Shown here: piece by piece, positions 18,256 through 44,577 of the stretch
How the letters are laid out: every line of letters starts with the position of its first letter
Numbering within the stretch: the stretch's first letter is position 1
Virus record (IMG/VR): IMGVR_UViG_3300002137_000253
Location: 1-44,577 of that record
DNA: 44,577 nt
Source: a virus
Direction: 5' to 3' (one strand)
Program-made: the position numbers and the translations under genes
The notes under the pieces: generated by a model
Databases searched by the model: none
Seen by the model: the letters and a program-made list of their open reading frames with translations, nothing else
Told to the model about the DNA's origin: nothing

Positions 18256-18263
18256 TAAACTAG

Positions 18264-18310: not shown

Positions 18311-18323
18311 AACCCTATACTAT

Positions 18324-18488
18324 ATGAACAGAGAGAACTTGGCTAGATCGGCCGCATTTGAAGCCTGGAGGAAAAGTATCCGCCAGGGAAGGATTCAGAT
18401 CCTAAAGAAACTCGTCGACCAGTACGGCGAAGAGAATTACGAACCGGAGCTAGTACTGGCGATGCTCCGTAATAATTTCGACAGATGA
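18324..18488 (+). CDS. Small basic helical protein, hypothetical
   Basis: A 54-residue ORF starting at ATG 18324 after an AACCCTATACTATATG context, and ending in an ATGA overlap with the XRE-like gene. The sequence (many Arg, Lys and Leu, e.g. RQGRIQILKKLVDQYG) should form helices. The start context and coupling make it a credible gene even at this size. It might act with the downstream DNA-binding protein, but I do not recognise it. Confidence 0.6.
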   Translation: MNRENLARSAAFEAWRKSIRQGRIQILKKLVDQYGEENYEPELVLAMLRNNFDR

Positions 18489-26895: not shown

Positions 26896-27321
26896 ATGAG
26901 GACTAATAAAGTACAGCTCATAGGGAACGTAGGCAAGGATCCAGAGATCCACCGCTTCGACACGGGAAGCTCGAAGGCTTCCTTCTCCCTAGCGACGAGC
27001 GAAAAATACCGCGATAATAGCGGACAGCTACAAGAAAAAACCGAATGGCATAACGTAGTAGCCTGGGGAAAGACAGCCGAGAAGGTCGAGAAATACCTAA
27101 AGAAAGGCTCGAAGATAGGCCTCGAAGGAAAGATCGAGACCAGGAAGTACCAGGATAGCGACGGATCCGATCGGTATATTACAGAGATCAACGCCTTTTC
27201 TATCCTCTTCCTGGATACTAAGAACAGAGATAACGATAACAGGGGAGCTAACTACTCCCCGAGCTCCTCGAGCGACGCGCCCGCTCCTGGAGACGATCCG
27301 GAGGATGACCTCTACTTCTAG
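26896..27321 (+). CDS. ssb: Single-stranded DNA-binding protein
   Basis: A 141-residue SSB. The OB-fold pattern is clear: NKVQLIGNVGKDPEI at the start, then KASFSLATSEKY, KTEWHNVVAWGKTAEKVEKY, KGSKIGLEGKIETRKY and the C-terminal acidic tail (residues ~125-141), ending DDLYF instead of the host-type DDDIPF. The changed tip may still bind SSB partner proteins. It likely coats replication intermediates and works with RuvC and the RecB-like nuclease. It has its own promoter candidate in the upstream gene. Confidence 0.92.
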   Translation: MRTNKVQLIGNVGKDPEIHRFDTGSSKASFSLATSEKYRDNSGQLQEKTEWHNVVAWGKTAEKVEKYLKKGSKIGLEGKIETRKYQDSDGSDRYITEINAFSILFLDTKNRDNDNRGANYSPSSSSDAPAPGDDPEDDLYF

Positions 27322-27651
27322 GTGGAGGAACTCCGGAACCGTTTCTACGACCTTATCCGAAACCTACGAAGAGTACAGGCGCGATACTTTCAGCTTCGGA
27401 ATAAGGCAGACCTCGAGCTATCTAAGAAACTAGAAGCCCAGACCAGGGACTCGATAACCTGGATACAGAAGAACCCGGAACAGCTCCGGGATCCTCTAGT
27501 TCTCCAGGTGCGTAAGATGCTCGATAGCCAGACCCAGTACTATAACCAGAAGAGCCGCGATAACTTAACTCGATCGAAGACTCTCGAGAGAGAGGTCGAT
27601 AAAGCCGTCGCCGAGTTCTTCGACTCCCAGACCTCCCTCTTCGATGAATAA
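27322..27651 (+). CDS. Helical hypothetical protein with GTG start
   Basis: A 109-residue, highly charged, almost entirely helical protein. It begins with GTG directly after the ssb stop codon, so translation is presumably coupled. The C-terminal stretch SQTSLFDE resembles short partner-binding motifs of clamp or SSB interactors (QxxLF), which would fit a replication accessory role. That reading is speculative. Confidence 0.6.
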   Translation: MEELRNRFYDLIRNLRRVQARYFQLRNKADLELSKKLEAQTRDSITWIQKNPEQLRDPLVLQVRKMLDSQTQYYNQKSRDNLTRSKTLEREVDKAVAEFFDSQTSLFDE

Positions 27652-28111
27652 GCCCAGGAAATACGAGGCGCTCGTCCAGGTAGACCAGAACGGGAGGCCT
27701 AAGACATATAACCGGCGAGCCCTGGAGGAGTTCTTCGCTCTTAACCCGGGCGCTCGCTTTACAGCCGTCTATAAGAAAGTCGGGAACCGGAAGACCGATA
27801 AGTTACGGGCGTATTACTTCGCGGAAGTCGTACCGAAGTTCCAGATCGTACTCCGGGGACACGGCTATAATTTTACGAAGGAAGGGACGCACGACTTTAT
27901 TAAGCAATTCAGCCCAGTAATGAGCGAAGAAGTAGAGATCGACGGGAACTACTTTACGAAGGATAGAGGCCTATCGGACGACGACTTCGATACTAGCGAC
28001 TTCCTGGCTTATCTGGAGGATCTTAAACAGATCGGTGCGGAGACCTTCGGGATAGTAATTAACGACCCGGGCGACTTCGACGACCGGATAGATACAGAGG
28101 CCGATGAATAG
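27644..28111 (+). CDS. NinB-like recombination protein candidate
   Basis: A 155-residue protein with the segment KLRAYYFAEVVPKFQIVLRGHGY (key: R..YYFAEVVP, then GY) followed by HDFIKQF. It resembles small phage proteins of the NinB/Orf recombination-mediator type, in which this motif has the form NxxYYxxVxP. It lies next to ssb and a methyltransferase. The acidic C-terminus is long. The assignment is tentative. Confidence 0.5.
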   Translation: MNKPRKYEALVQVDQNGRPKTYNRRALEEFFALNPGARFTAVYKKVGNRKTDKLRAYYFAEVVPKFQIVLRGHGYNFTKEGTHDFIKQFSPVMSEEVEIDGNYFTKDRGLSDDDFDTSDFLAYLEDLKQIGAETFGIVINDPGDFDDRIDTEADE

Positions 28112-28718
28112 GACAGTAATACAGGCAGAAGCCCTCGCTTGGCTAAACGGCCAGGAACCGGATAGCTACCTCGCTATCGTAACCAGTCTCCCGGATCCCG
28201 AGGAGGTAGGTATATCGATACAGAAATGGAAGACCTGGATCGCGGCCGTAGCCGAGTCGATAGACCGAGTCCTGGATCCTCGAGGGATAGCCGTCTTTTA
28301 CCAGACAGACCGGAGAGTAAATGGCGAGATCCTGGATAAGAAGAGCCGTATATCGGCGGCCTTCTACGATTTGGGATACCGTACCGTCCTCTCGAAGATC
28401 GCCTTAACCCAGAACCCAGATACGACGAACCTCTTCCGACCTACCTATACGAACCTCTTCGCCGTATCGAAGAAGGCGACCTCCGGACAGGCTACGCCGG
28501 ATGTCTTCGGAGCCGGTAAGAAGGTATACCCGAACGCTACCGGACTAAAGGCGGCGACCGTCGCCCTGGAGTACGTAAGGAGCCAGGTCGGGGACGTAGT
28601 TATCCTCGATCCCTTTTGCGGCCAGGGCTCCATCCTTAAGATCGCGAACGATCTCGGCCTGGACTCTATCGGTATCGATATCGACGAGAGCCAGGTACTT
28701 AAAGCCCGGAAGCTATGA
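28104..28718 (+). CDS. SAM-dependent DNA methyltransferase with SLPD motif
   Basis: A 204-residue methyltransferase. The SAM-binding motif I, DPFCGQGS, begins at residue 169, near the C-terminus, and the catalytic motif IV, TSLPD (27-31), lies at the N-terminus, the beta-class order. SLPD replaces the usual (D/N/S)PP(Y/F) motif, so the target base cannot be predicted confidently. There is no obvious target recognition domain, so it is small. It could protect phage DNA against host restriction. It overlaps the genes on either side. Confidence 0.7.
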   Translation: MNRTVIQAEALAWLNGQEPDSYLAIVTSLPDPEEVGISIQKWKTWIAAVAESIDRVLDPRGIAVFYQTDRRVNGEILDKKSRISAAFYDLGYRTVLSKIALTQNPDTTNLFRPTYTNLFAVSKKATSGQATPDVFGAGKKVYPNATGLKAATVALEYVRSQVGDVVILDPFCGQGSILKIANDLGLDSIGIDIDESQVLKARKL

Positions 28719-28891
28719 AGATCCCTATCCGATACAGGCTACGCCGTAAAGGCCAGGGAGCGATCGGGGAGATTGAGGTAGACCTACCGGATCGGGAGTA
28801 TAGAGACGAAGACCAGAGAGTCGACGCGATCGACGACCTGGTAGTCGAGAAGCTCGGAGAGAGTCCGATCTGGTGGCGCGAAACGAAATGA
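28715..28891 (+). CDS. Small charged hypothetical protein
   Basis: A 58-residue ORF starting in an ATGA overlap with the methyltransferase stop and ending before a 92-base gap. It is rich in Arg, Asp and Glu with no recognised motif. The coupling suggests it is translated together with the methyltransferase. Confidence 0.55.
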   Translation: MKIPIRYRLRRKGQGAIGEIEVDLPDREYRDEDQRVDAIDDLVVEKLGESPIWWRETK

Positions 28892-28983
28892 AGCCCACAA
28901 ATCGACTCAAAAGATATCCGGTATAGAGAGCGCCGGGCTCGAAGCGAAAGTTCTCACAACGTAATTTTTATCCAAAATAAGTT

Positions 28984-29727
28984 ATGATTAACGGATATAG
29001 CAGAGTCGCCCAGATAACTGGAGGCGGCCTCGAGTTCGTACAGTCGAACGAGGTAAATAACCCGGGGACAGTAGACCAGAGGGAAACGAAGACTAGGGAT
29101 ACGGGAGTACCGCACCCGGATCTTAAGGAGAAGTTCGAGGATCTTAAGACCTTCTTCCTTCGATCTCTCGGACTGGATCCCTTTCCGGCTCTCTTCGCCC
29201 TGGATAAGTCGGAGACCCCAGGCGCTACGATTAAAGAGCGACAGGCTGTAAAGGATATCGCTAAAGTACTCGTGAAGCTCCAGTCGGAGATCCAGGAGAA
29301 GATCGAGATCCGAAGCGTATCTATCTCGGGAACAGAAGAGAAGCCGAAGATTATTATCTCCGGAGTAGTCGAGACCCCGAACGGGAAGAAGGCGGCCTTA
29401 AACACGCCCCTAATCGATACGAGTAGATCGACCTATGGCTTCGAGGAGTCCCTCCTGGAGAGAGTAGAGCAGCTCGTAGAGGAGGTAGAGAAGTATCGAG
29501 GAGGGAAGAGGCAACAGCTATCGATGGACTTCGGAGATGATTCGGATATTCAAGACGAAGGCCAGGCTCCGGACTTCTTCGGTAAGGAGGGAGAGCGTAC
29601 AGGCGATCCAGAACCAGGAGAACAGGCGGACGGATCCGATCTACCTCCGGCGAAGGAGAAGAATAGCCCAGTAAGACCTCGGAAGAAGGTAGCCGAGAAA
29701 GTCGATAAGGAGAAGGAAGTAGCGTAA
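28984..29727 (+). CDS. Hypothetical protein with long acidic-basic C-terminal tail
   Basis: A 247-residue protein. Residues ~40-160 look globular with helices and strands; the last ~75 residues are low-complexity, first acidic, then Lys/Pro-rich (PVRPRKKVAEKVDKEKEVA). A KRQQLSMDF stretch near residue 180 resembles a clamp-binding QxxLxxF peptide (QLSMDF), which might link it to the replication clamp. The family is unknown. An AT-rich leader and ATAAGTTATG context mark the start. Confidence 0.65.
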   Translation: MINGYSRVAQITGGGLEFVQSNEVNNPGTVDQRETKTRDTGVPHPDLKEKFEDLKTFFLRSLGLDPFPALFALDKSETPGATIKERQAVKDIAKVLVKLQSEIQEKIEIRSVSISGTEEKPKIIISGVVETPNGKKAALNTPLIDTSRSTYGFEESLLERVEQLVEEVEKYRGGKRQQLSMDFGDDSDIQDEGQAPDFFGKEGERTGDPEPGEQADGSDLPPAKEKNSPVRPRKKVAEKVDKEKEVA

Positions 29728-29728
29728 T

Positions 29729-30196
29729 ATGAAATTGCCTATCTCCCTCGACTCTCGAGAGGAGTACGATTACGTCCGGAACGAGCGAGGATACGAACCT
29801 CTCGCAGACTTCCGGACGTTTTCTTTACCTCCAGAACTGAGGTACGAGCTCCTCCTGGAAAAGTTCCAGAAGTATAACCCGAAACAGACCGCCCGCTTCT
29901 ATCGTTGGTACTGGGAAACCTACCCGGGAAGCCAGGATCCAAGGCGATGCGAGAACTGTAATACGCCGCTGCCTTTATACTCGGCAGTTTATGTATCGCA
30001 TATTCTTACTCGAGGGAGCTATCCCTTCGTCGAGATAGCCTACGATCCCCGGAATATAAACCTCCTTTGCTTCGATTGCCATAGACGATGGGAAGACCGT
30101 ACTCTTCGAGGAGATCTTCATATCTTCGCAGATAACCAGGCCAGGATCGAGACTATTAGGTCGGAGTTCCTGGCCGTATACACAAACAGATTATGA
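29729..30196 (+). CDS. HNH endonuclease
   Basis: A 155-residue protein with a zinc-bound HNH motif: C74 and C77, then H91 in VSHIL, an Asn in RNINLLC, and C114/C117/H118 in CFDCH. The nuclease probably needs a divalent metal. It overlaps the following methyltransferase as ATGA, which suggests the pair is expressed together, either as a phage restriction-modification-like unit or, if it is a homing-type nuclease, by chance. HNH proteins also assist packaging in some phages, but this one is far from terminase. Confidence 0.8.
   Translation: MKLPISLDSREEYDYVRNERGYEPLADFRTFSLPPELRYELLLEKFQKYNPKQTARFYRWYWETYPGSQDPRRCENCNTPLPLYSAVYVSHILTRGSYPFVEIAYDPRNINLLCFDCHRRWEDRTLRGDLHIFADNQARIETIRSEFLAVYTNRL
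30117..30129 (+). promoter_or_regulatory. Promoter-like motif inside the HNH gene
   Basis: TTCATATCTTCGC matches the recurrent motif with one transition class change (TTC for TTT), and -7 box TATCTTCG. It lies 64 bases before the ATG of the methyltransferase at 30193 and could boost it independently of the nuclease. Because it lies inside coding sequence, chance is possible. Confidence 0.4.
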
Positions 30197-31536
30197 ATAC
30201 GATTAAGATCCACAACCTCGGCGGCCTTCCGACTACTCCCTACCAGGCTCTCGAAGGTATCCAGGGAGACCTCTACGACTACTCCGGAGTAGAAGCCCTT
30301 ATCCGCTCGATACTGGAGAAGGGCTTTATCTTCCCGAAAATGGCTTGGAAGAGCGGGAAGAAGCTCTATATAATAGACGGCCATAAGACGAAGAAAGCGC
30401 TCGAGCTCCTGGAGGAACGAGGCTACGAGATCCCGGAGATCCCCTACGTCCCTATCCCGGCTAAGAATAAGAAGGAAGCCGCTCTTAACCTGGTACTCTT
30501 TAACTCGAAATTCGGTAAAGTCCAGGATCCTACCCGGTTCCTAAACGATAACGGGATAATGCGCGAAGATCTTATCGCCCTGGAAGAGATCCTTTATATC
30601 CCTCCCTTCGACCTGGATCGAATTATATCGCCGCCAGATCCGAAGGAGAGAGGTAGGAAACTTCTCGACGAGTTCGGCGCTCCTCCTTTTACGATATTCG
30701 ACGCGAAGCAAGGATACTGGCAAGAGAGGAAGGCCGCTTGGCTAGGCCTCGGGATCCGCTCAGAGCTCGGACGCGGGGAGAAGCTCCTCGGCTTCCCTAA
30801 ACAGATAGCAGAAGACCAGGGACTCGCCGCGACTTCGATCTTCGACCCAGTCCTGGCGGAGCTAATTTATACCTGGTATCTTCCTCGATTAAACGCTAAG
30901 ATACTAGACCCATTCGCCGGAGGATCTGTACGCGGGATCGTAGCCTATAAGCTAGGATTCCAGTATACCGGTATCGAATTACGCCAGGAGCAGATAGAAG
31001 CTAACTACCAGAACCTCGAGGAGATCTTCCCGGAAGAAGTAGCCGATATCTCTCCGACCTGGATACCAGGAGACAGCTTGGAGGAACTTCCGAAAATTAA
31101 GGAGAAGTTCGACCTCGTCTTTACCTGTCCTCCTTACTTCGACCTAGAGCAGTATAGCGAAGACCCGAAGGATCTATCCGCTATGAGCTTCCAGGAGTTC
31201 GAGGGAGTATACCGGGAGATCCTCCGCGCCTCCTTCGATAAGCTCATAGATAACCGCTTCGCCGTAGTCGTTATCGGTAACGTCCGAGATAAGAAGGGAG
31301 CCTTCCGCGATCTGGTAGGCCTAACCATCGATGCGGCCAGGAGCTCCGGCCTTATTTTCTATAACGACTGTATCCTGTGCACCGCTATAAGCTCCGCCTC
31401 TATGAGAGCTCGGAAATTCTTTACAGCCGCCAGGAAACAGACGAGGATCCACCAGAACGTACTAATCTTCTACAAGGGAGACCCGAAGAAAATAAAGGAA
31501 ACCTTTACGGAAGTATTAACCCTCCGCGACGAATGA
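30193..31536 (+). CDS. ParB-like domain fused to a DNA methyltransferase
   Basis: A 447-residue fusion. The N-terminal ~120 residues resemble a ParB/Srx domain: LIRSILEKGFIFP, then IIDGHKTKKALELL (DGHKT, 62-66) with the GHxR-like motif as GHKT. The C-terminal half is an N6/N4-type DNA methyltransferase: DPFAGG at 239-244 (motif I, SAM) and TCPPYF near 310-315 (motif IV). ParB-methyltransferase fusions are common in phages and usually modify phage DNA to evade restriction. It follows an HNH nuclease with a 4-base overlap. Confidence 0.85.
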   Translation: MNTIKIHNLGGLPTTPYQALEGIQGDLYDYSGVEALIRSILEKGFIFPKMAWKSGKKLYIIDGHKTKKALELLEERGYEIPEIPYVPIPAKNKKEAALNLVLFNSKFGKVQDPTRFLNDNGIMREDLIALEEILYIPPFDLDRIISPPDPKERGRKLLDEFGAPPFTIFDAKQGYWQERKAAWLGLGIRSELGRGEKLLGFPKQIAEDQGLAATSIFDPVLAELIYTWYLPRLNAKILDPFAGGSVRGIVAYKLGFQYTGIELRQEQIEANYQNLEEIFPEEVADISPTWIPGDSLEELPKIKEKFDLVFTCPPYFDLEQYSEDPKDLSAMSFQEFEGVYREILRASFDKLIDNRFAVVVIGNVRDKKGAFRDLVGLTIDAARSSGLIFYNDCILCTAISSASMRARKFFTAARKQTRIHQNVLIFYKGDPKKIKETFTEVLTLRDE

Positions 31537-31721
31537 CGAGGCTCTGGGCTATTATTTTCGGGAAGGATCCCTATGTCGAAGAATTCTACCTATGGAACCC
31601 TACGAGCGAGGAGTACGTCCAGGACGGATGCGGGAATACGATAAACTTCGAGACCGAGAAGAACGCGGAAGCGGCTCGAAAGTTATACGGGAAGGAGCTA
31701 GTCGTCCACATAAAGAGATAA
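31533..31721 (+). CDS. Small hypothetical protein
   Basis: A 62-residue protein. I use the ATG at 31533, which overlaps the methyltransferase stop, instead of an out-of-register longer frame beginning at 31377 inside the upstream gene. It has many aromatic and charged residues, and no recognised motif. It ends just before a promoter and closes the early/middle block. Confidence 0.65.
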   Translation: MTRLWAIIFGKDPYVEEFYLWNPTSEEYVQDGCGNTINFETEKNAEAARKLYGKELVVHIKR

Positions 31722-31734
31722 TTCATATCTTCGG
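31722..31734 (+). promoter_or_regulatory. Promoter, TTCATATCTTCGG type, almost on a start codon
   Basis: The recurrent motif, with -7 box TATCTTCG at 31726-31733, follows the previous stop directly. The ATG at 31738 comes 4 bases after the box, so transcription should begin at or next to the start codon. Confidence 0.6.
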
Positions 31735-31737
31735 CTT

Positions 31738-32133
31738 ATGAAAAAAGTAATTTTCGTCCTAGCCCTGGCCTTCTTTTTAATAGGAACGGCCGCCCCTGGA
31801 TTCGCTTCTCCCGAGGTAGGACATAACCACCAGACAAAAGAAGCCGCCCTCTCCCCGCTAGACGGGGAGCCTGTGAGTTATAGCCCTAGCTATACCATCG
31901 ACCAGAACCTACTCGCCTCCGTCCAGACGAAAGAGGCCGGAGGATCCGCCGCGAGTTCTAACGAGTCCGGGGAAGATCTGGACGAGATCGTCGACGACGC
32001 GATCGATCACTGGGAAGATAAACCCCTGGGGGAGCCCTGGCCTCTGTGGATCGGTTGGATCGTGGCCGCCGCGCTTATTATCCAACGAGCCTGGAAATAC
32101 TTCTCCAGTAAGAAGGAACCGGACGGAGAGTAA
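31738..32133 (+). CDS. Membrane-anchored exported protein, hypothetical
   Basis: A 131-residue protein with a clear signal peptide (MKK, hydrophobic core, likely cleavage after GFA near residue 24), a long acidic, low-complexity stretch, and a membrane segment at ~100-116 with a basic cytoplasmic-side tail. It likely sits in the inner membrane with its N-terminal part outside. It has its own promoter. Superinfection exclusion or lysis control are possible roles; neither is shown. Confidence 0.65.
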   Translation: MKKVIFVLALAFFLIGTAAPGFASPEVGHNHQTKEAALSPLDGEPVSYSPSYTIDQNLLASVQTKEAGGSAASSNESGEDLDEIVDDAIDHWEDKPLGEPWPLWIGWIVAAALIIQRAWKYFSSKKEPDGE

Positions 32134-32215
32134 ACGACTACAAAATACACGAGACTTGCCTCCTGGAGGTCTGTAAAACCTAAAGGAGAGGACGAGATCC
32201 TCGCGAGAAAATCCG

Positions 32216-32223
32216 TACATTTG
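32216..32223 (+). promoter_or_regulatory. Consensus Bacteroidota -7 promoter box
   Basis: TACATTTG is an exact match to TAnnTTTG. It lies in a 230-base gap, and the next open reading frame begins only after a terminator, so it appears to drive the structured RNA that follows. Confidence 0.6.
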
Positions 32224-32309
32224 CGCGACGATAGAGGGATGTCCATCCCTTCGCGTTGTTAAAAGTTCGACACGAGCGCCTCCCTTCGACAGGAGGCGCT
32301 CTTCTTTTG
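32224..32309 (+). ncRNA. Candidate small structured RNA
   Basis: Directly after a consensus -7 box, CGCGA (32224-32228) pairs with TCGCG (32251-32255) and, inside it, AGGGAT pairs with ATCCCT (32235-32240 with 32245-32250) around a GTCC loop. A short A-rich linker leads to a perfect 10-bp terminator hairpin (32274-32301) with TTCTTTT. There is no open reading frame of note. The transcription start should lie a few bases after the -7 box, so part of the first stem's 5' arm might be lost. The role is unknown. Confidence 0.55.
32274..32309 (+). terminator. Strong terminator
   Basis: GAGCGCCTCC (32274-32283) pairs perfectly with GGAGGCGCTC (32292-32301) around an 8-base loop, followed by TTCTTTTG. 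It ends the small RNA and insulates the next promoter at 32332. Confidence 0.85.
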
Positions 32310-32331
32310 TACGGTATCCAGTCCGGGATCT

Positions 32332-32344
32332 TTCATATCTTTAC
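32332..32344 (+). promoter_or_regulatory. Promoter, TTCATATCTTTAC type
   Basis: An exact copy of the recurrent 13-mer just downstream of a terminator, 20 bases before the ATG at 32364. It should drive the membrane protein and both terminase genes. Confidence 0.65.
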
Positions 32345-32363
32345 CTCTCAGATCTCGAACTTT

Positions 32364-32735
32364 ATGAAAATACCCAGAGCCTCCAGGCCGACCTCCGACT
32401 TATCCGCGATACGCACCTTCCTAGAGCAGAACCCGCCCGGAAGGATCGAGACCGCCCTCTTCTCTATATCTGGACTCCAGAGACGCCGACGCCGGACGAT
32501 CCTCTGGATACGGGGAGTACTCTTATACTTCCTCTTCCAATACGCAGAGAGCCGGGGATATACTTCCCTCCAGGAAGGGATCCAGGCCTTCGCGATAGCC
32601 TTCTACTCCGCCCTCGTTCTCTTTACTTTCGTAGCCCTCCAGTACGAAGGGAAAAGGATCCGTAAGATCGCCAGACTTACAGGGAAGAACTCTATAACCG
32701 TCGCCCGAGTAATGCGACGTAAAGAAGTAAGATAA
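32364..32735 (+). CDS. Two-segment membrane protein, hypothetical
   Basis: A 123-residue basic protein with two hydrophobic segments, about residues 46-60 (TILWIRGVLLYFLFQYA) and 75-92 (AFAIAFYSALVLFTFVAL), and a basic tail. I start it at the ATG 32364 after the promoter; the longer frame from 32256 would run through the terminator hairpin. It could be a holin-like or other membrane protein. It is the first gene of the terminase operon. Confidence 0.65.
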   Translation: MKIPRASRPTSDLSAIRTFLEQNPPGRIETALFSISGLQRRRRRTILWIRGVLLYFLFQYAESRGYTSLQEGIQAFAIAFYSALVLFTFVALQYEGKRIRKIARLTGKNSITVARVMRRKEVR

Positions 32736-32746
32736 CCAGACCGAAC

Positions 32747-33208
32747 GTGCCGAAGGAAACAAAAGCCACCAGAGCAGAAATACAGAGACGAGTCGACCTA
32801 TGCCTCTCCCAGATCCTTAACGGATGGACGGCGTATAGAATATCGCAGTACGTCGCCACTATGCGAGAACTTCGAGAACTGGGGAGAGTAACGAAGACGG
32901 ACGGCTACGATCCCTCTTGGGACTGGGACGTCCAGATCCGCCAGGTATACGAGTATTGCCAGAAGGCCGACGAAGAACTCGAGAAGATCCAGACCAGGAA
33001 GAGGAAGGTCTCCTATAACCTCTCCCTCGCTAGATGGAACGACTTCCTCCGGAAAGCTATAACACAGGGCGACCTAGCGAACGCCCGCTTAATACAGAAG
33101 GAGATCGATAAACTTACCGGAGTCCTCGAATTTGGAGCCGACGGCGGAGAAGCCGCTAAAGAAGAAGCCCAGATCCGACTCTCCGACGGAACCGTAATAA
33201 ACCTATGA
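32747..33208 (+). CDS. terS: Putative terminase small subunit
   Basis: A 153-residue helical protein with GTG start. An N-terminal helix-turn-helix-like region (GWTAYRISQYVA..., near residues 29-45) and a long central coiled coil (~65-110) fit the DNA-binding and oligomerisation parts of small terminases. The large subunit lies three genes downstream, so the two are not adjacent. The assignment is from layout and context. Confidence 0.6.
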   Translation: MPKETKATRAEIQRRVDLCLSQILNGWTAYRISQYVATMRELRELGRVTKTDGYDPSWDWDVQIRQVYEYCQKADEELEKIQTRKRKVSYNLSLARWNDFLRKAITQGDLANARLIQKEIDKLTGVLEFGADGGEAAKEEAQIRLSDGTVINL

Positions 33209-33717
33209 CCCGAAAGAACCAAATTATCCAGGCCTATAAGAAGAGCGGCCGACTCTCAGCTCTTATGCAGCTCGTAAATAAGAAACAGAAGCGAGAGCCG
33301 AACGTAGAGGAGTTCCTGGCCGACTTCCTCGAGTACTACGAAACTAGGCTCCAGGACGAAGCTCTCCTCGAAGAAGTTGTCCTATCCTCCGACCAGGAAG
33401 CGGAGCCCTTTTATATAACCTTCCCTATCGTATACCTGGACGCCGCTAGCGATTTATACGCGGAGCCACGGGAGAGAGCTCTATCGGACGAGGACGGGAA
33501 GCTAATTACGGGGAAGAAGACAGCCGCGATAGATAGTATCCTGGAGATCACGGAGGAGTACGGAAGCGAGGAGTCCGACGACCCTCCCTTTACGGTCGTA
33601 ACTATCCAGACCAGGACAGAGAACCGCCTCTTCCTAAGTCCTTTACCTTTGTCCGCCTTCCTCCGGGCTCTGGAGAACTACGGCTTCGGTAGTATAGACG
33701 TACAGCTCTTTCGATAA
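33205..33717 (+). CDS. Hypothetical protein in the terminase operon
   Basis: A 170-residue protein coupled to the small-terminase candidate by an ATGA overlap. The N-terminus is helical and basic (IIQAYKKSGRLSALMQLVN), the rest acidic and beta-rich. No family is recognised. A promoter motif lies just after its stop. Confidence 0.65.
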   Translation: MTRKNQIIQAYKKSGRLSALMQLVNKKQKREPNVEEFLADFLEYYETRLQDEALLEEVVLSSDQEAEPFYITFPIVYLDAASDLYAEPRERALSDEDGKLITGKKTAAIDSILEITEEYGSEESDDPPFTVVTIQTRTENRLFLSPLPLSAFLRALENYGFGSIDVQLFR

Positions 33718-33730
33718 TCTTTATCTTCGT
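33718..33730 (+). promoter_or_regulatory. Promoter-like motif before the secreted protein gene
   Basis: TCTTTATCTTCGT shares the -7 box TATCTTCG (33722-33729) with the recurrent promoter but has TCTT instead of TTCA ahead of it. It lies 23 bases before the ATG at 33753. Confidence 0.5.
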
Positions 33731-33752
33731 ATAAACTTAATATGCAGACCCT

Positions 33753-34382
33753 ATGAAAAATCTATGCGCTATCCTGGCCGCGATCGTACTATCGATCTCC
33801 GCCTACTGTCAAGAGTCCTACTACGTATACCAGGGAGAAGACTCCGTACTGGTAACTCTCCAGGAGCCGCTCCGGAGCTCCCTAGAGGTAGATCTTTATC
33901 ACTGTTACTTCTGGACGGACACGCTCGGCCAGGCCTTCTACGACTTCGACTTCTCTAGTAACGGCGTCGTCGATATCTCCGACTTCCTGGTATTAAACGC
34001 TACCTACGGCGGCCAGATCCAGACCCCTACCGTAATAGACTTCCTCGCCGCCTTCGGTCTACCCTCTACTCCTATCGACGCACCGGATCTTAATCTCTTC
34101 GACTTCGGATATCCAGGAGGAGGAGTATACTCTTCGGGCTTCCTAGCTACCGTACCGGAGGAGTACGCGGATCTACTATTCGAGAATAGAGTAGGAGTAT
34201 ACCCAGATTCCGACGACTTTATAGGCCAGTACACCCAGAGCGACGAGCTCTTCCCCGCGACCTCTTGCCCTCTCGAGGACTGGCTTCTCTGTATGCGAAC
34301 CTTTAAGAACTACCTCTTCGTCCTAGAACCAGGGAGCGGAGACGTCTACGTAGAGAGCTATTACTGGATCCGTTTAGATTAA
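33753..34382 (+). CDS. Secreted protein with a dockerin-like EF-hand motif
   Basis: A 209-residue protein with a signal peptide (hydrophobic core ~7-16, cleavage near residue 19) and a calcium-loop motif at residues 66-77 in which D66, S68, N70, G71, D74 and D77 follow the dockerin/EF-hand spacing. Such half-dockerin repeats (NGVVDISDFL) are common in secreted Bacteroidota proteins. The remainder is acidic and aromatic, with a few Cys. It may be host-derived and act on the cell surface, for instance to block superinfection. It has its own promoter. It starts at ATG 33753; an ATG at 33741 is out of frame. Confidence 0.65.
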   Translation: MKNLCAILAAIVLSISAYCQESYYVYQGEDSVLVTLQEPLRSSLEVDLYHCYFWTDTLGQAFYDFDFSSNGVVDISDFLVLNATYGGQIQTPTVIDFLAAFGLPSTPIDAPDLNLFDFGYPGGGVYSSGFLATVPEEYADLLFENRVGVYPDSDDFIGQYTQSDELFPATSCPLEDWLLCMRTFKNYLFVLEPGSGDVYVESYYWIRLD

Positions 34383-34386
34383 CCGT

Positions 34387-34614
34387 ATGGCGAAAAGAAA
34401 AACGATACCAGGGAAGGACGCCGTATACTTTAACCCGGATAAGAACGCTACCTACGAATACCGGACGGCCTATAAGGACGGGGAGACCTTCCCGGAGATC
34501 CTATACCAGGGGAAATGGTGGAGGCTCTGGAAGAACCCGGACAGGAATAACTCGTACCTCTTATCTGATCCAGAGGAACCAGGAGCGACCGGAACTATCC
34601 AAGCCCCAGAATGA
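34387..34614 (+). CDS. Small hypothetical protein before terL
   Basis: A 75-residue soluble protein with many aromatic and charged residues, no motif recognised. It begins 4 bases after the secreted protein's stop and overlaps the large terminase start (ATGA). Confidence 0.65.
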   Translation: MAKRKTIPGKDAVYFNPDKNATYEYRTAYKDGETFPEILYQGKWWRLWKNPDRNNSYLLSDPEEPGATGTIQAPE

Positions 34615-36023
34615 TAACCGTAGACCTCCAGAAGAACGAAAAGCAGCAAGAGCTATTTGACGTATGCCTCCAGGAGATAGAGAAGCATAACGAGATAGAG
34701 AAGAAGAAGGCCGAAGGCTCCCTACCCTGGGACTACCTCCGTCCTCTCGCTCTTATCTACTTCTTCTACGGCGGAGCTATCCGGGGAGGTAAGACCTTCG
34801 GGATCCTGGCACTACTCGTTCTAATCGCCTCCAGGATCTACTCCGGGAGCCGTTGGCACGTAGTACGGAAGTCCTACCCGGATCTACTCCGCTCTACGAT
34901 CCCTAGTATGGAGAAGATCCTAAAGGGGAAGCGCGTCCGATGGAACCGATCGACCTCGAACTATTACGTCGAATTTGAGAATAAGAGCCGGATCTACTTT
35001 ATCTCCGAGAACCTTAAACAGGATCCAGAGCTTACTAGCTTCCTCGGACTAGAGACGAACGGCTTCGTCCTGGAGCAAATAGACGAGCTCAGTAAGAAAA
35101 CCCTCGAGAAGGCTCGAGAGAGAGCCGGATCCTGGTACGACGTCTCGCCCTGTATCCCTCCTCCTTTTATCTTCTCTAGCTTTAACCCGACCTTCGGATG
35201 GCTTAAGAAGGATATCTACGACCGATGGATCTCCGGCGATCTCCAGGCTCCGTACTACTACCTAACGGCTCTCCCTTCGGATAATAAGCTCGTAACAGCT
35301 CAACAATGGGCGGCCTGGCGTCTCCTGGATCCGAAGAGCTACTCCCAGATGATCGAGGGATCGTGGGAAGTCGATATCGAGGGATCCTTTATGTACGCCT
35401 TCGACCAGAAGCTACACTTAAGGGACGGGATCCGCGTATCTCCGGCTAGGGATATCTGGATCTCCTTCGACTTTAACGTCGATCCTATGACCGCTATCCT
35501 CTTCCAGACAGACCACTCGACCTACTTCCGAGTCTTTAAGGAGTTCAGAGTCCCGAACTCGGATACCTACGACTTATGCGCCCGGATAAAGGCCTGGCTC
35601 CTGGAGAACGGATACCAGAACAGGATCCAGGTAACGGGAGACGCCTCGGGGAAGAACAGGATAAGCGGAGCGCGGGAGCATATTAACCACTACGAGATAA
35701 TACGTACAGAGCTAGGAGTCGCGGAGCAGTTCTTTAATATCCCAGGAGCGAACCCTTTTATCTCGGACTCTCGCGTCTTCTGTAATTCGATCCTGGCCAG
35801 ATTCCCGGAAGTATCGATCGACCCGGAAGGATGCCCCTACCTGGTAGAGGATCTCCGCTTCGTACTGGTAGGAGTAGACCAGGAAGGTAAGATCCGGATC
35901 CAGAAGACCGGGAAGAACCAGTACGCCGGAGTAGATAATTCTAAGCTCGGCCACCTCCTGGATTGCCTACGGTACGGTCTGCACGTTACATTGTCTAAAT
36001 TTATCCGGATCCCTAGATCTTAA
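34611..36023 (+). CDS. terL: Terminase large subunit
   Basis: A 470-residue DNA-packaging motor. The N-terminal ATPase has a Walker A-like GGAIRGGKT (54-62) and a Walker B VLEQIDEL with D158 and E159. The C-terminal nuclease has acidic residues at D287 (SFDFNVD), D344 (GDASG) and D451 (LGHLLDCLRYG), the RNase H-like triad of large terminases. It should cut and translocate phage DNA into proheads through the portal. The cut mode (headful or cos) cannot be judged from this alone. It is followed by a gap with a candidate small RNA. Confidence 0.92.
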   Translation: MITVDLQKNEKQQELFDVCLQEIEKHNEIEKKKAEGSLPWDYLRPLALIYFFYGGAIRGGKTFGILALLVLIASRIYSGSRWHVVRKSYPDLLRSTIPSMEKILKGKRVRWNRSTSNYYVEFENKSRIYFISENLKQDPELTSFLGLETNGFVLEQIDELSKKTLEKARERAGSWYDVSPCIPPPFIFSSFNPTFGWLKKDIYDRWISGDLQAPYYYLTALPSDNKLVTAQQWAAWRLLDPKSYSQMIEGSWEVDIEGSFMYAFDQKLHLRDGIRVSPARDIWISFDFNVDPMTAILFQTDHSTYFRVFKEFRVPNSDTYDLCARIKAWLLENGYQNRIQVTGDASGKNRISGAREHINHYEIIRTELGVAEQFFNIPGANPFISDSRVFCNSILARFPEVSIDPEGCPYLVEDLRFVLVGVDQEGKIRIQKTGKNQYAGVDNSKLGHLLDCLRYGLHVTLSKFIRIPRS

Positions 36024-36036
36024 TCATTATCTTCGC
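36024..36036 (+). promoter_or_regulatory. Promoter-like motif after terL
   Basis: TCATTATCTTCGC holds TATCTTCG (36028-36035), as in other promoter motifs here. No gene starts before the terminator at 36099-36142, so it would transcribe a short non-coding RNA. Confidence 0.5.
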
Positions 36037-36039
36037 AGC

Positions 36040-36142
36040 CACCAGATGCCGTAGAGATAACCGTCTGGGAGATTCTCATAATCTGTTTTCATTAAAGCAA
36101 GCCCGGTCGCGATAGTTTTCTATCCTTCCGGGCTTCGTTTTT
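36040..36142 (+). ncRNA. Candidate second small structured RNA
   Basis: After the -7 box, CCAGA (36042-36046) pairs with TCTGG (36064-36068), AGATT pairs with AATCT (36070-36084) around CTCAT, and a terminator hairpin follows. No plausible ORF is present. The layout copies that at 32224-32309: promoter, stem-loops, terminator, then a TTCATATCTT promoter. Function is unknown; a 5' leader remnant or attenuator for the tail operon is the alternative. Confidence 0.45.
36099..36142 (+). terminator. Strong terminator before the tail operon
   Basis: AAGCCCGG (36099-36106) pairs with CCGGGCTT (36128-36135), with an inner GATAG-TTTT-CTATC stem, and a T5 run at 36138-36142. It ends terminase-side transcripts and the candidate RNA. 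A promoter follows in the same bases. Confidence 0.85.
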
Positions 36143-36153
36143 CATATCTTCGT
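36141..36153 (+). promoter_or_regulatory. Promoter of the tail operon
   Basis: TTCATATCTTCGT overlaps the end of the terminator T-run; -7 box TATCTTCG at 36145-36152. It is 17 bases upstream of the ATG at 36170 and should drive the chaperone, tape measure and tail-tip genes. Confidence 0.65.
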
Positions 36154-36169
36154 ATCTGAAAAAGAAAAG

Positions 36170-36382
36170 ATGAACAGAACTAGAGTACAGACCTTTACCC
36201 TTCGGCTCCAGTATATCGGAGAGCCTCCAGTAGATCGCTATAAGAGAGCCTTCTACGCCTGGAGCGAGCCGCTTCCTGGAGGGATAACCTTCCGCGCACC
36301 TATCTTATTCTCTACTGGAGATGTCGCGATCGCAGAGATAAACAGACGTACCCGCTCAAATTTTAGCTTATGCCTCAACTAA
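36170..36382 (+). CDS. Small basic hypothetical protein, first of the tail operon
   Basis: A 70-residue basic, beta-rich protein with no recognised motif. It overlaps the tail chaperone gene by 13 bases. An A-rich leader without a Shine-Dalgarno motif precedes it. Confidence 0.65.
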   Translation: MNRTRVQTFTLRLQYIGEPPVDRYKRAFYAWSEPLPGGITFRAPILFSTGDVAIAEINRRTRSNFSLCLN

Positions 36383-37029
36383 TTACATTCGCCCTGGGAT
36401 CCCTTACCGTAATTGTACTCCTATTCGCCTGGAGGTACGGCCGACGCCTTTATCTTAAGAATAGACAGAAGGCCAGGAAGAAGAAGGCGCTCTCCAGATT
36501 AACGATAGAGCAGAAGGAGAGGTACGGAGTCGTAGAACTATGGGAAGACACTAGCGGCCGTACCTGGCTAGCCTTCGAGAACTCTACCCGTATGCCCGCC
36601 GCCCGCTCGATATACGTCGAGATCGCTACCCGCCAGACGGAGCTAAACCTTACGACCGAGCGCTTCCTCGAGTTCGTCGCCGCGATCGAGTTCCAGATGA
36701 ATAAGGGACAGTTTGTAAAGGCCGCCGAACTCCTCGGAGAGATGAAAGACCGTAGTACCTGGGCGTGCGAAGAAGAGACCCTTCTAACTTTAGCGAGCTA
36801 TTACTTCCTCCTGGAGGGAGAGGATCCCGTTAACGTATCGGACGACTGGACGAAGAAGAAGCGGGAGATATTTAAGACAGAACCAGAGGTGAGGGCTTTT
36901 TTTTTGATCGCCTCATACAGACTCATAAAGCAACTTTCGGATATTACCGAGAGCGATATCCTCGCATATTTAGCGGAGCACCAGGTAAAGAAACACCTCA
37001 GACAGAGAGGAGAGTCTACGCCGAGCTAA
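36370..37029 (+). CDS. Tail assembly chaperone (gpG-like), zero-frame product
   Basis: A 219-residue protein upstream of the tape measure, where G/T chaperones lie. The first ~35 residues include a membrane-like segment (ITFALGSLTVIVLLFAW) and a basic patch, which is odd for a chaperone; the rest is helical. At bases 36897-36905, a T9 run is read GCT TTT TTT TTG. A -1 shift there enters a frame that stays open through the next ORF to 37193, producing a 275-residue fusion like lambda gpGT. An internal ATG near residue 75 might be an alternative start. Confidence 0.7.
   Translation: MPQLITFALGSLTVIVLLFAWRYGRRLYLKNRQKARKKKALSRLTIEQKERYGVVELWEDTSGRTWLAFENSTRMPAARSIYVEIATRQTELNLTTERFLEFVAAIEFQMNKGQFVKAAELLGEMKDRSTWACEEETLLTLASYYFLLEGEDPVNVSDDWTKKKREIFKTEPEVRAFFLIASYRLIKQLSDITESDILAYLAEHQVKKHLRQRGESTPS
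36897..36905 (+). promoter_or_regulatory. T9 slippery site for -1 frameshift
   Basis: Nine consecutive T bases, the longest single-base run I see in the window. In the zero frame P- and A-site codons are both TTT, so a -1 slip re-pairs perfectly (T TTT TTT pattern). Polymerase slippage adding one U would have the same effect. The -1 frame has no stop until 37194. Confidence 0.7.
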
Positions 37030-37196
37030 TGCAGTATATCGAGTCGATTAACGAGCAGAACTTCATCCTCTCTGGGGAGTCTGTTCTGGAGAGCGATCGG
37101 CTTCTGGCTTTACCGACGGACGAGTATTACGCGAACCTCGATACCTTCCTCCGCGTCTCAGATAAACGGAAGGAAGCGATCGACTCGATAAAATAG
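37029..37196 (+). CDS. Tail chaperone second part (gpT-like), reached by frameshift
   Basis: A 55-residue ORF whose ATG overlaps the stop of the upstream chaperone. It lies in the -1 frame relative to it, and that frame is open back to the T9 site, so it is probably the C-terminal part of a frameshift fusion rather than a free protein. The acidic helical sequence fits the T domain that binds the tail tube or tape measure. It ends 5 bases before the tape measure start. Confidence 0.65.
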   Translation: MQYIESINEQNFILSGESVLESDRLLALPTDEYYANLDTFLRVSDKRKEAIDSIK

Positions 37197-37201
37197 TATA
37201 T

Positions 37202-40200
37202 ATGGCCATAAAAACTAGGAATGTCCTCTTTAAGTTCGATACAGAGATCGCCGGATCCCAGGCGAAGCTCGATAAATTAGCGAAGGATCTCGAGGACGTA
37301 GAGAAACAGTATAAAGGAGCGAAGGAAGGATCCCTCGAATGGGCGGAAGCTCAGAAGAAGCTAATCGGTATCCAGAGACAGCTAGGACTCGCTACGGACG
37401 AAAGTACGAAGAAGACCTCTAACTGGACGAAAACCTTAAAAGGTGCCGGACAGGCTATACTCGCCTTCGGAGGAGTCGCTACGATCGGCGCTATTATCTC
37501 GGACGCTGCGGTAAAGATAATCGACTTCGACCAGGCGCTCGCGGATCTCTCCGCTATTACTGGAGCGACCGGCGGAGATCTGGAATTTTTAGAGAATAAG
37601 GCGAAGGAGTTCGGGAAGACGACTACCGTATCCGCTACCGAGGCCGTCGAGGCGTTTAAGCTCGTAGGATCCGCGAAGCCGGAGCTCTTACAGAACGCCG
37701 AAGCTCTGGCCGCCCTAACCGCCGAAGCTATTACCCTATCGGAGGCCGCCGGATTCGATCTACCTACCGCCGCCGAGTCCCTGGGCTCCGCTTTGAACGC
37801 CCTAAACCTCCCAGCCTCAGAAGCCGGGAGAGTTATTAACGTACTAGCCGCCGCCTCTCAACAGGGATCGAGAGAGATCCCATTCGTAACGGACGCCTTT
37901 AGTAAGTTCGGAGGTATCGCCGCCCAGGCCGGCGTCTCTATCGAGAGCTCCGCCGCCGCCGTAGAGATCCTCGGAAAAGTTATACCAGACGCCGCCGTAG
38001 TAGGAACTAACCTACGGGGAGTACTCGTGAAGCTCCAGGTCGCCGCCGCCGAAGAGGGTAGGCAGTTCGAGGGACTTAACGAGGAGCTCGACCGATACGG
38101 GGATAAAGTCCAGGATATTACCTTCCTTAAGGAGACCTTCGGGGAAGAGAACCTTCTAGCCGCCCAGACCCTTATCGCGGAACGGGGAGCTCTCCAGGAT
38201 CTTACCGAGTCGATAACAGGAACGAACTCGGCCTACGAACAGGCCGAAGTCCGTACCTCTACCCTACGGGGAGCTCTGACTCGTCTACGTAACGCCTGGG
38301 AAAGTATCGTACTCCGCTTCGCCGGAGGATCCGGAGCCGCCTCGAAGGCTATTACCGCTCTGGCGGATAACCTGGAGACGATCGTAAAGGTAGTCGCCTC
38401 AGTAGTCGCCGGGCTCGTTACTTACCGATTAACGGTCTCAGCTATAACATTAGCCCAGAACGTAGCCAGGATCGCGACCGCCGCCTATACTACCGTAAAG
38501 ACTCTCTTTACTGGAGCAACCCAGGGAGCGACCGCCGCGACGAAAGCCTTTAACACAGCGCTAAAGTCGAACCCTATCGGCCTCCTTGTCGGAGTACTTA
38601 CTACGGTAGTAGCCCTTCTCTGGGACTACGGAGACGCCTCCGAGGACGCTACGGAGAAACAGAGGGAACTAAATGAAGCCATAAAGGAAGGACAGAGACT
38701 TCTAGGCAATACCCAGGATCTCCAGAAACAGGCCGACGCCGTCCGTACTTTTAACCGGGAGCAGACCGAAGCCTTCCTCCAGAGGATCGACCAGGAGCTC
38801 GCCGCCGCCGAAGCTAAGGGTGCGAAACTATTAACCCTGGAAGAGGAGACCAATAATAAGATAGCGAACGCTATCGGAGGAGACCAGGGAGCCAAACTTC
38901 GAGCTATTAACGATCAAATCGCCGCCGCTATTTCGGACGGCGTAAGTAGATACTCCGAGTCCCTGGAGTCTCTCGAGTTCCAGAGATTCCAGATACTCGA
39001 AGCGAACCAGTTAAAGATCGCCCAGGCCGGCCTCCAACAGATTAACCTTACCCAGGATACACAGGAGGGACTTACTCAGATAGAGCTCGATCAACTCCAG
39101 ACGAGACTCCGGAACTTTAGACAGCTCGGAGAAGAGCGCCTCGCGTTCCTTAAGACTCTAGTAAAGGAAGAAGAGGATATCGCGGAGAACGCCGACGCCG
39201 TTCGTCCTGGTACGATAGCCGCCCTCCAGGAGGAAGTAAATAAGCTCCGGGACGAAGTAGTTAAGGAAGTAGAGATCGGTAGCGAAGAGTTCGCCGACGC
39301 GATCGAGAGGTACGTAATAGCCTCCGGTAAACTGGAGGAAGTACAGAGTAACCTCCGGAAGGTAGAGCCCGTCCAGGAGGGAAGCGTCCGCGCTCTAGCG
39401 GAAACCGTTAACGCCCTCCGGACAGAGGTAGAGAACACGAACGCGGAGGCGGAAGGATTCGACGGACTGGTATCCAGGCTCCAGGCCGCCCAGGACGAAC
39501 TAAAACAGCTCCAGGATCAAATTAGAGGATCCCAGACTGGAGGAGCGGAGACCGATAACCTAGCCGATGCAGATCTTAAGGAAGCGGAGAGGAACCAGGT
39601 AGCCCTCGCTCAGATCTACCAAGAAGGAGAGATTCGGATCCTGGATATAAAGCTCGCATTTGCGAAAGCTCGCCTCCAGTTACTCAAAGACTCTGGCAAG
39701 CTCGAGACCGACGAGTACGAGAGACAGATTAACGAGATAACGGAGCTAGAAGCCCAGAAGGGAGTCGCTATACAGAACTCGAACCAGGCACAGATCCAGA
39801 GCGATAACCAGAAGACCGCCGACCTCCTGGATAATATCCAGATGGTACTCGACGCCGCCTTCGCGGCCGCCCAGACTCTCGTCCAGATAAAGCTCGACGA
39901 GGTACAGCAACTTATCGGACTCCAGGAGCAGAGAGTAAACGAAGCCCAGGAGATCGCCGACCAGGGGAACGCGGAAGTCCTGGAGGCGGAAGAGAAGAGG
40001 CTCGACGATCTTAATAAGAAGAGGGAGGAGTTCGTTCGTAAACAGCAAGCGCTCGCGGCCGCTCAGTTAATAGCCGAGTCCGCTCTAGCTATCGCGAAGG
40101 CCGCCGCCCAGGGAGGAGCCGCCGCTCCCTTTACGATCGCGGCTACTATTATAGCTCTGGCCGCCGGTCTAGCCCAGGCTCGAGCTCTGGCTTCACAGAG

Positions 40201-40567
40201 CGCGTTCTTTAAGGGAGGATATACCGGGGACGGAAGCCCCTACGAGGAGAGTACAGCGCTAGGATCTAGGCCGTATATCTACCATAAGAAGGAGTTCGTT
40301 ATGGATCACGTCGTTACTGGTATCGGAAGGAATAAGGAGATCTTCGACTGGATCCTTAAAGGTCGCGTCGACCTGGCCGAAGCCTTTAACCAGAAGAGCG
40401 TAATTATAGCCCAGGGCGGAGGTATCTCCGAGTCTAAAATGGACGAGCTTATAGCTACGATCCGGAACAAACCAGTATCGAGCCTATCGCTCAGTAAACA
40501 GGGAGTCGTTAAGATCGTAACCGATGCAGCTAAGAAGTCTAACCGAGTAAATAGGAGAACGACGTGA
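37202..40567 (+). CDS. Tape measure protein
   Basis: A 1121-residue protein, the longest in the genome. Residues ~100-280 match the TP901-type tape measure core: DFDQALADLSAITGATGGD, ATEAVEAFKLVGSAKPELLQ and VINVLAAASQQG are in place. It has a membrane segment pair near 395-470, long coiled coils through ~500-950, and an Ala-rich hydrophobic stretch near 955-1000. It sets tail length; at about 1.5 Angstrom per residue the tail should be roughly 170 nm. The stop overlaps the next gene's GTG. Confidence 0.93.
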   Translation: MAIKTRNVLFKFDTEIAGSQAKLDKLAKDLEDVEKQYKGAKEGSLEWAEAQKKLIGIQRQLGLATDESTKKTSNWTKTLKGAGQAILAFGGVATIGAIISDAAVKIIDFDQALADLSAITGATGGDLEFLENKAKEFGKTTTVSATEAVEAFKLVGSAKPELLQNAEALAALTAEAITLSEAAGFDLPTAAESLGSALNALNLPASEAGRVINVLAAASQQGSREIPFVTDAFSKFGGIAAQAGVSIESSAAAVEILGKVIPDAAVVGTNLRGVLVKLQVAAAEEGRQFEGLNEELDRYGDKVQDITFLKETFGEENLLAAQTLIAERGALQDLTESITGTNSAYEQAEVRTSTLRGALTRLRNAWESIVLRFAGGSGAASKAITALADNLETIVKVVASVVAGLVTYRLTVSAITLAQNVARIATAAYTTVKTLFTGATQGATAATKAFNTALKSNPIGLLVGVLTTVVALLWDYGDASEDATEKQRELNEAIKEGQRLLGNTQDLQKQADAVRTFNREQTEAFLQRIDQELAAAEAKGAKLLTLEEETNNKIANAIGGDQGAKLRAINDQIAAAISDGVSRYSESLESLEFQRFQILEANQLKIAQAGLQQINLTQDTQEGLTQIELDQLQTRLRNFRQLGEERLAFLKTLVKEEEDIAENADAVRPGTIAALQEEVNKLRDEVVKEVEIGSEEFADAIERYVIASGKLEEVQSNLRKVEPVQEGSVRALAETVNALRTEVENTNAEAEGFDGLVSRLQAAQDELKQLQDQIRGSQTGGAETDNLADADLKEAERNQVALAQIYQEGEIRILDIKLAFAKARLQLLKDSGKLETDEYERQINEITELEAQKGVAIQNSNQAQIQSDNQKTADLLDNIQMVLDAAFAAAQTLVQIKLDEVQQLIGLQEQRVNEAQEIADQGNAEVLEAEEKRLDDLNKKREEFVRKQQALAAAQLIAESALAIAKAAAQGGAAAPFTIAATIIALAAGLAQARALASQSAFFKGGYTGDGSPYEESTALGSRPYIYHKKEFVMDHVVTGIGRNKEIFDWILKGRVDLAEAFNQKSVIIAQGGGISESKMDELIATIRNKPVSSLSLSKQGVVKIVTDAAKKSNRVNRRTT

Positions 40568-42327
40568 TTGTAACGCTAAACGGAATAAATGTAAACTCCG
40601 GAGGGATCGACGGCCTGGATAAGATTAAGGTAAAAGTCCGGAGGAAAGACGAAGAGCAGAAGCTCGCGAAGAGCTTTACCGGGGAGCTAATCTTCTACGG
40701 TAACGGCTTCGAGATAATACGCCAGGAGCTTATCGACGATCCGGCGGGGAAGTTTAACCAGGTCGCGATTAAAGTCTTCGACGACTGTTGCGAAGGAGCA
40801 GATCCAGACGAGCCGATCCTAGTCTTCGAGGGGATCCTACGCGGGGACTCTATCGACTGGTGCGAGGGCGAATGCTTCGTTAAAGCCCAGGCCTTCGAGC
40901 ATACAGCGGAGACTCTAAAGTTCGACTGTGTAAAGTCTACCTTAATCTACGATAACTGGAACGGGATCCAACAGGAGGCACACCCGAGGATGGTATACTG
41001 TAACGAGATGCGCCCGAGCGGCCTCCAGGACGTTATCCTTATCTTCGGAATTATCTTAAACATTATTTTTATAGCAGTAACTCCGGTTGTATTTGTCGTC
41101 TGGCTTATAGTAGAGATCCTTAACGTACTTATCGGCGTAATTAACGGGATAATCGACGCGATAAACACCATCCCGGGGATCGATATAAATAATATAAACG
41201 AGGTAGACATCGACGGATCCGCCGACGATAACCTACTCCAGGTCTGGGCGGATCTTATCGACCAGATGAACGAGTCTATCCTGGGATGCGGCCGCGAGCA
41301 CCCGAGCCCATTAGTACGCCGCTATATCCAGAACGTATGCGATAAGTGCGGGATCGCCTTCGAGTCCTCGATTTTGAACGATCCGGAGAGCGACTACTAC
41401 AATACGGTATACTTATCGGCTCCGGTAGAGAAAGGAACCAGGGACGAGAACCAGACTTGGATCTCTGAGAACGCCCCTATAAAGACTTTAGAGGGACTAC
41501 TCCAGGATATTAAGCTACCCTTCTCCGCCGACTATCGGATAGAGAACGGCGTCTTAAAGTTCGAGAGGGAGGACTTCTTTTGGAGCGGGGAGACATTCGT
41601 GTCCTACCAGAATATCGTCGCCCAGGGGAGGCTCACCGAGAAGGTATGCTACTCCTGGAGAGACGAGGACGCGGCCGCCTTCGGACGGTTCCAGTACTCG
41701 GACGATCCGGTCGACTGGGTGGGGAACGAAGCCCGCGATCGGTATAACGATATAGTCGAGTTCAATCAACCGTATAGCGAGCTCCAGAGCGGAGCCCGCG
41801 AGATCTTTATGCCCTACGGTATGGCTAGAACTCGTACCGACGGGATAGATCGCGACGTCCTCGGAGATTATTCCTGGTGGATCCTCTGGACTTCTATCCT
41901 CCAGGAATTTGAGAACGCTATGGTTATGAACTCCGGAATTGCCTTTCAGCCGAAGCTCTTAATCTGGGACGGACAGAGTATAAACGCCGCCCAGATAAAG
42001 CGCTTCCCTACTCCAGGGGACGACGTTCCTACGGACGAGAGCTTTAACTCTCCTTACTGGTTTAACGAGAATACTCTGGCTCCGAATACTGGGTACGGCC
42101 AGGACTACGAGAACGGGAGCTTGTACGCGCGTTTCCACGCCTGGAAGCATCCGAGAGTATTAAACGATCGAGGCCTGGAGTTTACCTTCGCCTTCAAATT
42201 TAATTGTTCGCACCTCCTTAACCTGGACGTCTTTAAGCTCGTCGACTTACCGGTCGGCCAGGGACGGATCCAGGAGATAGAAATAGATTTTGAAACAAGA
42301 TTAATGACCTTATCCGGAAAAGTATAA
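40564..42327 (+). CDS. Tail-tip/baseplate hub protein with hydrophobic hairpin
   Basis: A 587-residue protein that starts with GTG overlapping the tape measure stop. The N-terminal ~140 residues are beta-rich with an acidic Cys patch (DDCCEG and CEGEC). Residues ~155-200 form a very hydrophobic stretch with two likely membrane helices (IFGIILNIIFIAV and FVVWLIVEILNVLIGVI). The rest looks globular, with GCGREHPSPLVRRYIQNVCDKCGI near 238-262 giving a CxxC pair. Position suggests a distal tail or hub protein; the hairpin may insert into the host membrane on DNA entry. Confidence 0.65.
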   Translation: MIVTLNGINVNSGGIDGLDKIKVKVRRKDEEQKLAKSFTGELIFYGNGFEIIRQELIDDPAGKFNQVAIKVFDDCCEGADPDEPILVFEGILRGDSIDWCEGECFVKAQAFEHTAETLKFDCVKSTLIYDNWNGIQQEAHPRMVYCNEMRPSGLQDVILIFGIILNIIFIAVTPVVFVVWLIVEILNVLIGVINGIIDAINTIPGIDINNINEVDIDGSADDNLLQVWADLIDQMNESILGCGREHPSPLVRRYIQNVCDKCGIAFESSILNDPESDYYNTVYLSAPVEKGTRDENQTWISENAPIKTLEGLLQDIKLPFSADYRIENGVLKFEREDFFWSGETFVSYQNIVAQGRLTEKVCYSWRDEDAAAFGRFQYSDDPVDWVGNEARDRYNDIVEFNQPYSELQSGAREIFMPYGMARTRTDGIDRDVLGDYSWWILWTSILQEFENAMVMNSGIAFQPKLLIWDGQSINAAQIKRFPTPGDDVPTDESFNSPYWFNENTLAPNTGYGQDYENGSLYARFHAWKHPRVLNDRGLEFTFAFKFNCSHLLNLDVFKLVDLPVGQGRIQEIEIDFETRLMTLSGKV

Positions 42328-42331
42328 AGAT

Positions 42332-44314: not shown

Positions 44315-44577
44315 GAATTGAGAGCCACAGGAGAACGATCTCGGGATCTGTGGTAACTATACCCGGGAAAAAAGAGATAACAGCCACAGCGCTAAAAAAG
44401 AATAAAATAATATGAGCCTCCAGTACGTAGACTTAACTCCAAGCCCAGAGACTCCGGCGGATACCGGAGCGACTACTCGATACCGACTTCTTCCTTCCCA
44501 GGTCGATTGCCCGGTATGTCCTATCGAGGTATGCGAAACCTGTTGCCCGGCCGAACTGGGAGCGCCTCATTACGTGG
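43260..44577. repeat. Terminal direct repeat, copy 2
   Basis: This is the second copy of bases 1-1318, with nine mismatches confined to 43603-43722. It closes the circle. The hairpin of 1066-1094 recurs at 44325-44353. Confidence 0.9.
44412..44577 (+). CDS. Start of the Cys-rich virion protein (cut by window end)
   Basis: This is the first 55 residues of the protein that is complete at 1153-2337, repeated because the window overlaps itself. The sequence is identical to the first copy, including the N-terminal CPVCPIEVCETCC cluster. Confidence 0.85.
   Translation, partial: MSLQYVDLTPSPETPADTGATTRYRLLPSQVDCPVCPIEVCETCCPAELGAPHYV

Follow-up and report, generated by a model that had tools for sequence, protein, structure and literature searches.

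The ORF-less stretch at positions 32216-32309 of this virus record is probably the 3' end of the transcript of the ORF at 31738-32133, together with a terminator that would insulate this transcript from the late operon. The window is the whole stretch of DNA that was analysed, a record of 44,577 bases. For the strong parts of the unit, a plain 3' untranslated region and a terminator are explanation enough, and the site between the two small genes appears to be mostly ordinary phage gene punctuation. We propose that the promoter at 31722-31733 would transcribe the ORF, and that the RNA would continue through a 3' untranslated region containing a short hairpin and end at the terminator at 32274-32309. 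The phage-type promoter at 32332-32343 would then start the operon leading towards the terminase gene, and the inner hairpin would be a 3' untranslated structure, possibly persisting in a stable 3'-end fragment. Such an arrangement would fix an operon boundary between this ORF and the downstream genes. The sequence signals and their non-randomness are observed directly, and their use by RNA polymerase is what we infer from them. The features of the junction are:

31722-31733, + strand: phage-type promoter TTCATATCTTCG of the ORF at 31738-32133 (box at 31726), assigned by motif
31738-32133, + strand: ORF of 131 amino acids with a signal-peptide-like start and a hydrophobic C-terminal stretch (membrane features read from the sequence by eye), no family match
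32216-32223, + strand: TACATTTG, a generic Bacteroidota -7 box with an exact TAnnTTTG, doubtful as a promoter
32224-32255, + strand: hairpin, its inner stem well supported by pair probabilities and its outer stem not
32274-32309, + strand: intrinsic terminator with a perfect 10-bp stem and a TTCTTTTG tail
32332-32343, + strand: phage-type promoter TTCATATCTTTA of the downstream (late) genes (box at 32336), assigned by motif

The perfect 10-bp terminator hairpin of the sequence-only reading was confirmed letter by letter at 32274-32301. Its arms, GAGCGCCTCC (32274-32283) and GGAGGCGCTC (32292-32301), form 10 pairs, 8 of them GC, and the TTCTTTT tail follows directly, as expected of an intrinsic (Rho-independent) terminator. 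Its stability lies in the top 0.06% among all 38-nt windows of the genome, and it has the most GC pairs among the terminator-like sites in the scanned regions 1-19000 and 27000-44577. The terminator and the inner hairpin keep pair probabilities of 0.83-1.0 in every context, and both fold equally well within the full 31738-32308 transcript, which favours the reading as a 3' untranslated region. This terminator is predicted to be a real stop signal for transcription. As a separate observation, TTCGACAnGAG occurs twice in 32266-32296, one copy running into the 5' arm of the terminator and the other leading from the terminator loop to the 3' arm.

The two flanking promoters (boxes at 31726 and 32336) match the phage's own motif and, with the strong terminator, favour an operon junction. 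The -7 motif of this phage, TTCATATCTTYR, is strongly enriched in intergenic DNA: the 1,475 intergenic bases contain TATCTT[TC][GA] eight times on the + strand, while TTCATATCTT was counted seven times on the + strand and never on the - strand. Sites of TTCATATCTTYR start at 2347, 7946, 15091, 31722, 32332 and 36141 (also 30117), on the + strand only, with no evident -33 element. Eight intergenic sites score 18.5-24.7 against the matrix that they themselves trained, which accounts for part of their high scores; two + strand sites outside the training set, at 30121 and 41040, score 18.5 and 17.5, and both lie inside ORFs. The new promoter placed 23 bases beyond the unit was also borne out, with TTCATATCTTTA starting at 32332, 23 bases after 32309, and belonging to this motif, and it is predicted to be a real transcription start for the genes that follow. 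This gives a little-known family of Bacteroidota phages a well-supported promoter motif.

The unit had been credited with start and stop signals of its own, and here only the stop is strong. The exact -7 box, TACATTTG, is indeed present at 32216-32223, but it is unlike the phage motif, scoring 7.6 (rank 58 of 86,486) against the 18.5-24.7 of the eight motif sites, and boxes of the TAnnTTTG class show no enrichment across the window (8 observed, 8.9 expected). None of 300 Markov sequences contained a TAnnTTTG box with a terminator of at least nine pairs after it, and, with the terminator taken as given, such a box falls in a 100-nt zone of intergenic DNA of this kind with a chance of only 1.4%, so TACATTTG cannot be dismissed. 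This box stands against a simple operon junction, as does the distance of 140 nt between stop codon and terminator, which is long for a compact genome and leaves room for a separate element.

The hairpin had been described as a nested stem-loop, and its inner half survives. The inner stem, AGGGAT (32235-32240) with ATCCCT (32245-32250), belongs to a hairpin in the top 1.1% of genome windows for stability, and the 86-nt unit is in the top 0.4% (z = -3.5). In contrast, the outer stem, CGCGA (32224-32228) with TCGCG (32251-32255), has a pair probability of 0.05-0.20 in every context, and its 5' arm lies upstream of the expected start. The sigma-A box of Flavobacterium psychrophilum occupies -12 to -5 (PMC9723704); this spacing, transferred from another genus, puts the start near 32228, and it agrees with the phage's own promoters, where a start codon lies 4 and 5 nt after the boxes at 31726 and 15095. 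An RNA starting at 32228 would lack all but one of the five bases in the outer 5' arm, weakening the 5' hairpin from -14.9 to -10.4 kcal/mol. Given the published spacing, the promoter TACATTTG and the nested hairpin as described would thus not belong to one RNA.

The wider genome gives the setting of this site. Since 1,318 bases are repeated at the ends of the record (1-1318 and 43260-44577, 9 mismatches), the genome probably has a circular or circularly permuted form of about 43.26 kb. Eight of the nine mismatches cluster at 403-463, and the repeat probably marks where a circular map closes, with variants from the population. The assigned genes are all on the + strand, which also favours the operon-junction reading:

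3017, + strand: portal, PHROG match
7298, + strand: amidase, PHROG match
9333, + strand: capsid gene, role assigned from gene order and conservation
34611, + strand: large terminase subunit (terL), PHROG match
37202, + strand: tape measure, PHROG match

Capsid scans returned 56 IMG/VR loci and one locus in an uncultured Bacteroidia genome, the latter supporting a Bacteroidota host; the closest capsid relative has 47% identity. No nucleotide relatives were found in the phage collection searched, nor any relatives in IMG/VR scans with terL and the two flanking ORFs as queries, and a methyltransferase scan found relatives for the methyltransferase gene alone. The region upstream of terL is without conservation among the capsid-scan relatives.

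Instead of a 3' untranslated region, the unit might be an independent small RNA of about 80 nt, starting near 32228 from TACATTTG, ending at the terminator and acting on host or phage RNAs or proteins, a reading that we consider possible but doubtful. An exact sigma-A type box with only that 1.4% chance lies 50 nt before a strong terminator, and the unit has the terminator of its own and the lack of an ORF expected of an sRNA. In B. thetaiotaomicron, high-confidence intergenic sRNAs are likewise marked by a transcription start site plus a terminator (PMC7366714), and the window holds a second ORF-less unit at 36024-36144. Against this, TACATTTG departs from the phage's promoter motif, the outer stem begins upstream of the expected +1, and neither a homolog nor a target signal was found. 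The 230-base gap (32134-32363) has no homolog in 49 related virus records or the Bacteroidia genome, except for a 19-base match (E 0.06) to query positions 212-230, outside the hairpin unit; these records have a capsid identity of 47% or less and several are fragments without the region, so the absence of the element is weak evidence. The inner hairpin pattern matched no IMG/VR contig in a search that may leave out near-identical records, and Rfam gave the unit no match at gathering score, with four weak matches far below the family cut-offs. When duplex energies of the hairpin and linker with the phage translation starts were compared with shuffles, 33% of the shuffles were as good or better. 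Of the phage-encoded small RNA first proposed, the stop signal and the next promoter therefore stand, whereas its start signal is weak and it is without homolog or target signal.

The second unit has the same layout:

36024-36144, + strand: second ORF-less unit, with promoter TTATCTTCG just after terL, about 100 nt, a terminator and promoter TTCATATCTTCG

Counted with its second promoter, the arrangement spans 36024-36169. Its first box fits the phage motif, and with this better promoter it is a better candidate of the same kind than 32216-32309. A counterpart, TTATCTTTG, lies at the same place after terL in a relative (G003), with an ATG four bases on; the body of the unit (36036-36095) is not unusually stable (z about 0). 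If RNA is made from the units at 32216 and 36028, both would be candidate phage-encoded small RNAs in a phylum with few known. That the terminase block is bracketed by two ORF-less units whose RNAs regulate or gate late-gene expression seems unlikely to us, and we found no precedent for such a scheme in Bacteroidota phages in the limited literature found. Also unlikely is a promoter-leader-terminator gate, in which the leader RNA or a phage protein would let polymerase past the terminator into the late genes. At the lambda late promoter and the HK022 put sites, polymerase is let past a terminator into downstream genes, and lambda 6S RNA and HK022 put RNA are short ORF-less leaders ending at a terminator upstream of late genes. 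Here, too, both units closely precede late structural and packaging genes. Unlike in those systems, however, a phage-type promoter (32336, 36145) directly follows each terminator, so that read-through is not needed, and no antiterminator gene was identified; among the relatives, promoter boxes ahead of terminators do not clearly exceed the chance level (7/47; control mean 4.3, maximum 9).

It is very improbable that the stretch is coding, with the downstream protein beginning at TTG 32256 and not at ATG 32364: the TTG frame is open over 32256-32735, but it would cross the perfect terminator and the promoter at 32332, and we rejected it because the extension has codon log-odds of 0.03, whereas the neighbouring genes reach 0.28-0.34. 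The original statement of no ORF is therefore right in essence. A seven-codon ORF, MSIPSRC at 32239, was also considered as a leader peptide, and no support was found for it.

Elsewhere in this phage family, the capsid gene and gene 2458 appear to have leaders with an H-type pseudoknot, both in the window and in the relatives G001-G003. The instances are:

2402-2434, 9240-9272 and 9279-9311: leader pseudoknots in the window
L058:4182, L051:3109 and L052:2989: leader pseudoknots in relatives
L108, L111-L114, L116, L118, L120 and L122: pseudoknots in capsid leaders

The layout is nGGn, a loop with stem 2, nCCn, an A-rich linker and the stem 2 partner. In nine instances, which are not independent in that those of G001 and G002 resemble each other, the second stem forms 5-7 pairs with its own partner, compared with a mean of 3.9 for swapped partners, and there are compensatory changes between phages. 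With strict pairing, 13 of 47 distinct capsid leaders carry the pseudoknot (0.34 in Markov controls), several of the 13 being close relatives. Rfam gave no family match for the window's capsid leader; the pseudoknot may be an element of translation or autoregulation. It shows that covarying leader RNAs are detectable in this phage family, unlike the element at 32216-32309. No copy of the pseudoknot was found in the gap 32134-32363. In another relative (L100), a GAGGAGTC...ACTGGCACnCAAT hairpin with a T-rich tail occurs in two copies before genes (4761-4783 and 11387-11409), one of them directly upstream of the capsid gene.

Known systems resemble this site to different degrees. DicF, SprY, c4 and AsxR are phage-derived sRNAs with transcripts and targets (PMC12197685); the idea of a short structured RNA from a phage genome is the same, whereas the present unit is a candidate read from sequence and no target was found. 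The intergenic and 3' UTR-derived sRNAs of Bacteroides thetaiotaomicron (PMC7366714) share the TAnnTTTG-type box and the terminator around a short ORF-less stretch; here, in contrast, neither conservation nor a target signal was found for the candidate RNA, and the promoter is weak against the phage's own set. Finally, the site has the same GC-rich perfect stem, T-rich tail and new promoter within 30 bases as phage operon junctions in which an intrinsic terminator is followed by a promoter; it differs from them in the 140 nt ahead of its terminator, which contain an additional hairpin and a generic -7 box.
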